From: Armatimonadota bacterium
Lineage (GTDB): Bacteria > Armatimonadota > Chthonomonadetes > Chthonomonadales > Chthonomonadaceae
Length of the DNA stretch: 64,000 bases
Direction: 5' to 3'
Assembly: GCA_028871815.1 (NCBI GenBank)
Contig: JAGWMJ010000004.1
Span: forward strand, 1-64,000
Shown here: piece by piece, positions 9,730-46,612 of the stretch
Numbering within the stretch: the first letter of the stretch is position 1
How the letters are laid out: every line of letters starts with the position of its first letter
Notes under the pieces: generated by a model
Seen by the model: the letters and a program-made list of their open reading frames with translations, nothing else
Databases searched by the model: none
What the model was told of the DNA's origin: nothing
Position numbers and translations under genes: made by a program

Positions 9730-9828
9730 CGAGCGATCTCCCAGTGGCCGCAGAATCTTCCGGGCTTTTCGACGTAGGCCGGTGGACTTCCTGCCGCAGC
9801 GGCTTCGGAGGGTGCGCGAAAGGCAAGC

Positions 9829-10782
9829 TTGAAGGCAGCAGTGCTGACGGTGAGTGACCGCTGTTCCAGCGGCGCGATGGAGGATTTGAGCGGAGCCCTG
9901 GCAGCCGGGCTGCTGGCCGCGGAAGGCTTCGATCCGGTTTTGCGCGCCTGCGTCGCGGATGATGCGGCCGCGATTGCGGCACAACTGATCGCTTTTTGCG
10001 CTGACGATGCCGCGCTGGTTCTCACGACGGGAGGAACGGGCATGGCGCCGCGAGATGTGACGCCTGAAGCCACACGGACGGTGCTGGAACGCGAGGCGCC
10101 GGGAGTTGCGGAGCTTCTCCGCTGGCGCGCCATGGCGCAGTTTCCGCGGGCTGTTCTATCACGCGGTCTGGCCGGCACGCGGGGCGGCACGTTGATCGTC
10201 AACCTGCCCGGAAGTCCTGGTGGCGTGCAGGATGGCGTCAAGGAGCTTTTACCGCATCTTGGGCATCTGCTTGCGCTGCTCCGCGGCGAGCCAACCGAGC
10301 ATTCGGCCCCGGAGTCGGCAGACCCGCCAGCCGTGGTGACGCAGCTGGAAGCGAACATCGACGACATGTCGCCGGAGCTTTACGATGTAGCTCTGGAGCG
10401 CATCGCCGCGGCGGGCGCGCTTGAGACGTTTCTGACGCCCGTGATCATGAAGAAGTGCCGGCCGGCCGTGCTGCTTACCGCCCTTGCGCCGCCGGAGCGG
10501 GCGGCGGCGGTGGCAAAAGCCATCCTGCGGGAAACTACCACATTCGGCGTGCGTTGGTCGGTGCGGCAGCGGTTTGTGCTCCGGCGTTCGTGGAGGACGG
10601 TTACCACGCCATACGGGGCTATACGGATCAAGCTGGGCGAAGCGGCAGATGGCAGCATTACAGCTTCGCCGGAGTTCGAGGACGTGAAGGCGGCTGCGGC
10701 GGCAACCGGCGCCCCTGCGGCGGCGATATTGCAAGCGGCGACTTCCGCGTATGCTGCCGAAGTGACGGCTGAAGCGCCGTAA
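9829..10782 (+). CDS. MogA/MoaB domain fused to LarC C-terminal domain
   Basis: A 317-residue two-domain protein. Residues 1-155 are a MogA/MoaB molybdopterin-adenylyltransferase fold: start MKAAVLTVSDRCSSG, the MPT/ATP loop TTGGTGMAPRDVTPE at 66-80 and LPGSPGGVQDG at 126-136. Residues 171-310 match the C-terminal part of LarC, the CTP-dependent nickel-inserting enzyme of the nickel-pincer nucleotide pathway: EANIDDMSPELYDVALERI, the MKKCRP segment, RETTTFGVR and the EFEDVKAAA tail. The N-terminal LarC domain and LarB/LarE are absent from the window. The start is a TTG with AAAGG five bases upstream. Both domain families transfer a nucleotide onto a sulfur cofactor before metal insertion, so a shared metal-cofactor role is plausible but unproven. 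Confidence 0.88.
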   Translation: MKAAVLTVSDRCSSGAMEDLSGALAAGLLAAEGFDPVLRACVADDAAAIAAQLIAFCADDAALVLTTGGTGMAPRDVTPEATRTVLEREAPGVAELLRWRAMAQFPRAVLSRGLAGTRGGTLIVNLPGSPGGVQDGVKELLPHLGHLLALLRGEPTEHSAPESADPPAVVTQLEANIDDMSPELYDVALERIAAAGALETFLTPVIMKKCRPAVLLTALAPPERAAAVAKAILRETTTFGVRWSVRQRFVLRRSWRTVTTPYGAIRIKLGEAADGSITASPEFEDVKAAAAATGAPAAAILQAATSAYAAEVTAEAP

Positions 10783-35391: not shown

Positions 35392-35474
35392 TGCCCAGAG
35401 CGGGACTCGAACCCGCATGCCCGTAAGGGCCGGGGTTTTTAAGACCCCTGTGTCTACCGTTCCACCATCCGGGC
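35392..35474 (-). tRNA. tRNA-Leu (anticodon TAA)
   Basis: On the minus strand GCCCGGA (35474-35468) pairs with TCTGGGC (35399-35393) as a 7-bp acceptor stem with one G-U pair. The anticodon stem GGGGT/ACCCC encloses CTTAAAA, giving TAA. A long variable arm (GCCC-TTAC-GGGC) and a T-arm GCGGG-TTCGAGT-CCCGC follow. The 83-nt length and class II variable arm fit leucine. CCA is not encoded. Confidence 0.95.

Positions 35475-46536: not shown

Positions 46537-46612
<76 letters not shown>

Follow-up and report, generated by a model that had tools for sequence, protein, structure and literature searches.

LarC is canonically one chain, and in L. plantarum it is made as LarC1 plus a frameshift product. 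The enzyme cytidinylylates the phosphate of a thiocarboxylated precursor, inserts nickel and removes CMP (PMC11796402), and Mog proteins carry out molybdopterin adenylylation ahead of metal insertion (PMC3896444). The preliminary description of the present locus had drawn an analogy between the two, each placing a nucleotide on a sulfur-containing cofactor just before metal insertion, and this analogy agrees with both published accounts. The Mg-binding aspartate of Mog proteins is Asp515 in Cnx1G and Asp56 in PfuMoaB (PMC3896444). Mog is also found tethered to another cofactor-biosynthesis enzyme, as in MoaC-MoaB/MogA (PRK03604), gephyrin and Cnx1 (Mog-MoeA). In these known fusions, the partner belongs to the same molybdenum-cofactor (Moco) pathway, whereas in the protein described here the partner, LarC2, comes from the nickel-pincer pathway. 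Tethering of Mog is a known kind of event; a partner from a different cofactor pathway appears to be new, and a literature search found no description of a Mog-LarC protein or a Mog-LarC2 architecture.

The gene is located in the window, which is the whole 64,000-nucleotide stretch of DNA that was analysed. The window's genome (G000) is 3.68 Mb and 98% complete, and its family (f1) was represented by 17 genomes. The features of the locus are given below; the Mog residue numbers Asp49 and Asp82 are those of E. coli MogA.

9829..10782, + strand: Mog-LarC2 fusion gene, 317 aa, TTG start at 9829, TAA at 10780-10782
9819..9823, + strand: probable ribosome-binding site AAAGG, 5 bp ahead of the TTG, read from the sequence
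9829..10296, + strand: MogA/MoaB domain, residues 1-156, with GGTG, the Asp49 and Asp82 equivalents, RDVTPE and LPGS
10297..10335, + strand: linker of 13 residues (14-38 in relatives), sequence not conserved
10336..10746, + strand: LarC2 domain, residues 170-306 (NF052512 match at 10336-10689)

The frame is uninterrupted and open end to end over its 317 residues, and both domains score above Pfam or NCBIfam cut-offs, as the originally claimed MogA/MoaB-LarC2 fusion predicts. Pfam returned MoCF_biosynth (PF00994) at residues 4-145 (E 2.4e-29, 102 bits against a cut-off of 26.6) and Ni_insertion (PF01969, E 6.7e-43). In NCBIfam, the LarC2 similarity was confirmed by nickel_LarC2 (NF052512, residues 170-287, 139 bits against a cut-off of 50), and the Mog domain matched TIGR00177 (109 bits against 85.35). 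The Mog domain missed the equivalog cut-offs of PRK09417 (116 vs 158 bits) and moaB_proteo (86 vs 222.4 bits), two models that describe narrower groups. Among PDB structures, the Mog half matched MoaB/MogA proteins, such as MoaB (2is8, 6e-34), and the other half matched LarC (12bi, 4e-28) and LarC2 (6bwo, 2e-22). A weak match (E 0.007) was also noted between 10333-10782 and MK0293 of Methanopyrus (3c19), a protein of solved structure that is possibly LarC2-like and free-standing.

Like E. coli MogA, Cnx1G and PfuMoaB, the N-terminal domain (residues 1-156) has GGTG, the Mg-binding Asp and Asp82. Asp49 of E. coli MogA aligns with the Mg-binding Asp of Cnx1G and PfuMoaB. Asp49 and Asp82, whose equivalents are both present in the window protein, are presumably catalytic residues in the E. 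coli enzyme. Unlike MogA/MoaB, the window protein has an additional C-terminal LarC2 domain; free MogA proteins of the order stop at an EPVDH-type motif; the fusions share this motif, after which a variable linker leads into LarC2. The LarC2 motifs known from LarC of L. plantarum and Moorella (PDB 12bi, 6bwo) are conserved (EANIDDMSPE, MKKCRP, ETTTFGVR, TPYG and SPEFEDVK), and LarC1 is likewise encoded in the genome. The difference from those LarC proteins is that LarC1 and LarC2 are separate genes here, with LarC2 fused to Mog.

The same fusion is encoded in all 17 genomes of the family, one of which is a single contig; thus, it is not a sequencing error. None of the three findings that would have told against the preliminary description (a stop or frameshift between the domains, absence from related genomes, or no LarC2 similarity in a profile search) was made. 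LarC matches were compared in 61 genomes: LarC2 was apart from LarC1 in 17/17 family members, and full-length LarC was found, wherever LarC was present, in the order's two other families and among the remaining genomes sampled from the phylum. When 251 genomes of the phylum were scanned for LarC2, 157 had the domain. Among the matches listed, the fusion was present in none of the approximately 140 LarC2-bearing genomes outside the family, and the LarC2 frames of those genomes had the size of full-length LarC, except for seven cut by contig ends. A further exception, a 373-aa LarC2 frame in G130, is without Mog. Additional LarC splits were considered in G177, G185, G132, G088, G064, G168 and G210 and were rejected, their short LarC2 frames being cut by contig ends. 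A scan of 85,000 species employed six short peptide patterns, which distant fusions could escape; the fusion was in none of the 80 best-matching loci kept, nor in the other loci fetched from outside the family. Stand-alone LarC2 frames were observed outside the family at L071:7953-8420 (156 aa) and L106:7815-8447 (211 aa); therefore, the family is not alone in having a split LarC.

In trees, LarC1 of the family forms one clade (support 0.999) beside LarCs of the same phylum, and named Armatimonadetes LarC1s interleave with LarC1s of the same phylum. The LarC2 tree from FastTree, which is short and noisy, has the window LarC2 straying to Armatimonadetes and WS1 sequences. A foreign source for the window LarC2 was considered and set aside, as a clade uniting the family was not rejected (p-AU 0.84). 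The Mog tree is poorly resolved and did not recover the fused Mogs as one clade. The simplest history consists of one fission and one fusion. In this scheme, LarC would have been split at its natural LarC1/LarC2 boundary in a single origin at the base of the family, and LarC2 would have been attached precisely where the resident MogA ends. Linkers of 13-38 aa, not conserved in sequence across the fusions, would suit a loose tether. Where it could be measured, in three pairs from a single genus, dN/dS was 0.05-0.12 in both halves, which are under strong purifying selection there; most of the remaining pairs had saturated dS. The fusion gene adjoins no molybdenum or nickel gene. Of its neighbours, only a cation-exchanger-like gene and some unrelated ones recur, in a minority of relatives. 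An Rfam search of the window detected no Moco or nickel riboswitch near the gene; the only matches were two minus-strand tRNA genes (35392-35474 and 46540-46612).

The preliminary description had correctly placed LarB, LarE and LarC1 outside the window, yet all three are encoded elsewhere in the genome. LarC1 is a separate gene (C2:184374-185099, 278 aa, TIGR00299 188 bits against a cut-off of 90), and LarE and LarB are adjacent in an operon (C1:697625-699210; 303 and 294 bits, both over their cut-offs). The fusion supplies the only LarC2 in the genome. A nickel-pincer nucleotide (NPN) isomerase of group 22 is encoded at C2:226680-227993 (= L193:6660-8015; NF052515, 437 bits against a cut-off of 400); it was found with a profile built from LarA-like proteins of order mates and was then named by NCBIfam. 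With LarC1, LarE-LarB and this isomerase elsewhere in the genome, the nickel-pincer pathway is therefore complete as judged from gene content. Classical LarA (PF09861) had no match in this genome or in some others of the family. The idea that the family is LarA-less in the manner of cyanobacteria was rejected, because PF09861 misses the NPN isomerase that the order-mate profile and NF052515 find. A PDB search with the order-mate profile gave only chance matches to repeat proteins. In the alignment of the order mates' isomerases, two His residues 65 apart and a Lys and a His 16 apart are invariant. The latter spacing is close to that of Lys184/His200, which we take to be the corresponding second pair of LarA. 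The former is close to that of the LarA His108/His174 pair (PMC11770544).

Free-standing LarC1 was detected in 15/17 family members; the two without a match, G003 and G004, are draft genomes. Fourteen whole copies end soon past the conserved PNLLR region, after the LarC1 domain; the remaining copy (G007) has its 5' end cut by a contig end. In all 15 genomes with both parts, LarC1 and LarC2 are separate genes, either on different contigs or far apart. At L172:4937-6738, LarC1 lies 5 bp upstream of a gene of the ornithine cyclodeaminase/mu-crystallin family.

Moco genes were also sought. The window's genome encodes MoaA (359 bits against a cut-off of 284), MoeA (recognised by its Pfam domains) and one molybdoenzyme of the xanthine-oxidase family (MoCoBD_1/2), so that larB, larE, a separate LarC1, moaA and moeA, the genes suggested for checking at the outset, are all present. 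By these marker genes, in a search that covered MoaA, MoeA, MoCF_biosynth domains and molybdoenzymes of this type, the organism would both make and use Moco. The only other MoCF_biosynth domains in the genome belong to MoeA and CinA; therefore, the fusion is its only MogA. Within the family, G010 gave no match for MoeA, nor did the drafts G015 and G016 for MoaA. Two order mates (G027 and G030) have MoaA and MoeA, and no MogA-type domain was found in them; perhaps they synthesize Moco without Mog. In another order mate, Mog occurs between moaA and moeA in a 326-aa frame (G024:C55, L190) whose N-terminal half is MoaC-like, probably a MoaC-Mog fusion.

The early description had suggested that a new type of metal cofactor may be made, or loaded, by the fusion. 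Consistent with this idea are the lack of a published Mog-LarC2 protein in the literature searched and the missing PF09861 LarA in some members of the family; however, the marker genes of both standard pathways are present, and a known group-22 NPN isomerase was found in the window's genome and in most family members searched. The proposal is thus unsupported, and we consider it extremely improbable.

One member of the family (G002) has a single-contig genome that is 99% complete, with the fusion at L145:5944-6969. No MoaA, MoeA or MoCoBD_1 enzyme (xanthine-oxidase type) was found in it, the search for molybdoenzymes covering the xanthine-oxidase type. Its Mog domain carries D82A and T84A, RDVTPE has become RASAPE and LPG has become LPF; the other 16 members keep Asp49, GGTG, Asp82 and RDxTPE. 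The mean identity of the G002 protein to the family is 43% for Mog, 59% for LarC2 and 65% for LarC1, the latter two still being among the best conserved. Elsewhere in the family, Mog is usually 2-9 points more conserved than LarC2 (G008, at -4, is a mild exception). In the Mog tree, the end branch of G002 is 2.28 long, against a median of 0.37. LarB, LarE, LarC1 and the group-22 isomerase are kept. Because Mog has decayed in this genome while LarC1 and LarC2 are intact, Mog catalysis tracks Moco and not nickel-pincer synthesis, a pattern to be expected of a Mog activity that serves Moco only.

These observations bear on a second early suggestion, that the Mog domain provides a nucleotidyl step in nickel-pincer synthesis. 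Its substrate or ligand would be the pincer nucleotide, or else an intermediate of LarC, which it would adenylylate or hold; LarC2 would complete the insertion, and Moco would be made otherwise. The covalent tether is kept in 17/17 genomes, the Mog and LarC reactions are chemically analogous (PMC11796402, PMC3896444), and the Mog fold persists in G002 without Moco genes. On the other hand, LarC needs no Mog elsewhere, genomes with MoaA, MoeA and molybdoenzymes have no MogA other than the fusion, and G002, albeit as one genome, argues against a required Mog step, having lost Asp82 and RDxTPE with LarB, LarE, LarC1 and LarC2 intact. The suggestion is accordingly unsupported, and recruitment of this kind seems very unlikely.

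The Mog domain of G002 remains full-length, with its fold retained despite the decay, and that fold could matter to LarC2. The two halves of the fusion may be catalytically independent, with the Mog trimer acting as a scaffold that gives LarC2 its oligomeric state following the split of LarC. MoaB/MogA proteins form trimers and hexamers (PMC3896444), and whole LarC has four PDB entries, with a mean of six chains; the catalytically damaged, yet full-length, Mog of G002 would also fit. Against a scaffold, the linkers are variable in length and sequence, and retention in G002 may reflect only a recent loss of Moco. A scaffolding role is tentatively possible, though somewhat doubtful; it is compatible with the explanation that we prefer and would add to it.

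In that preferred explanation, the fusion is a bifunctional enzyme that activates cofactors for two separate pathways, and its single origin lay in the splitting of LarC and the attachment of LarC2 to MogA. We regard it as likely, in view of the domains, gene content, phylogenetic spread, selection on both halves and Mog decay with Moco loss described above. Both catalytic activities are predicted from sequence. The N-terminal domain, as the sole MogA, would adenylylate molybdopterin, and the separate MoeA would then insert molybdate. The C-terminal domain would be the CTP-using half of LarC, partnered with the separately encoded LarC1. The product delivered by the LarE-LarB operon would be the substrate of LarC1 and LarC2, which would place nickel into the pincer nucleotide for use by the group-22 isomerase. 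LarC1 and Mog-LarC2 would have to assemble in trans, perhaps on the Mog trimer. A more elaborate version, in which the trimer nucleates a Mog-LarC2/LarC1 complex that shares or co-regulates the nucleotide activation of both sulfur cofactors, is rather unlikely.

Several consequences follow for the study of these pathways. Lineages called LarA-less on the basis of Pfam alone may hold a group-22 isomerase. With its apparently catalytically inactive Mog, G002 provides natural material for probing a structural role of this domain. The naturally split LarC of this family has separable LarC1 and LarC2, so that CTP use and metal binding can be directly tested against one another. The family carries a clade-wide natural fusion of two metal-cofactor pathways that had no known contact in the literature searched; if the coupling of their activation steps were true, it would be the first direct link between Moco and the nickel-pincer nucleotide.
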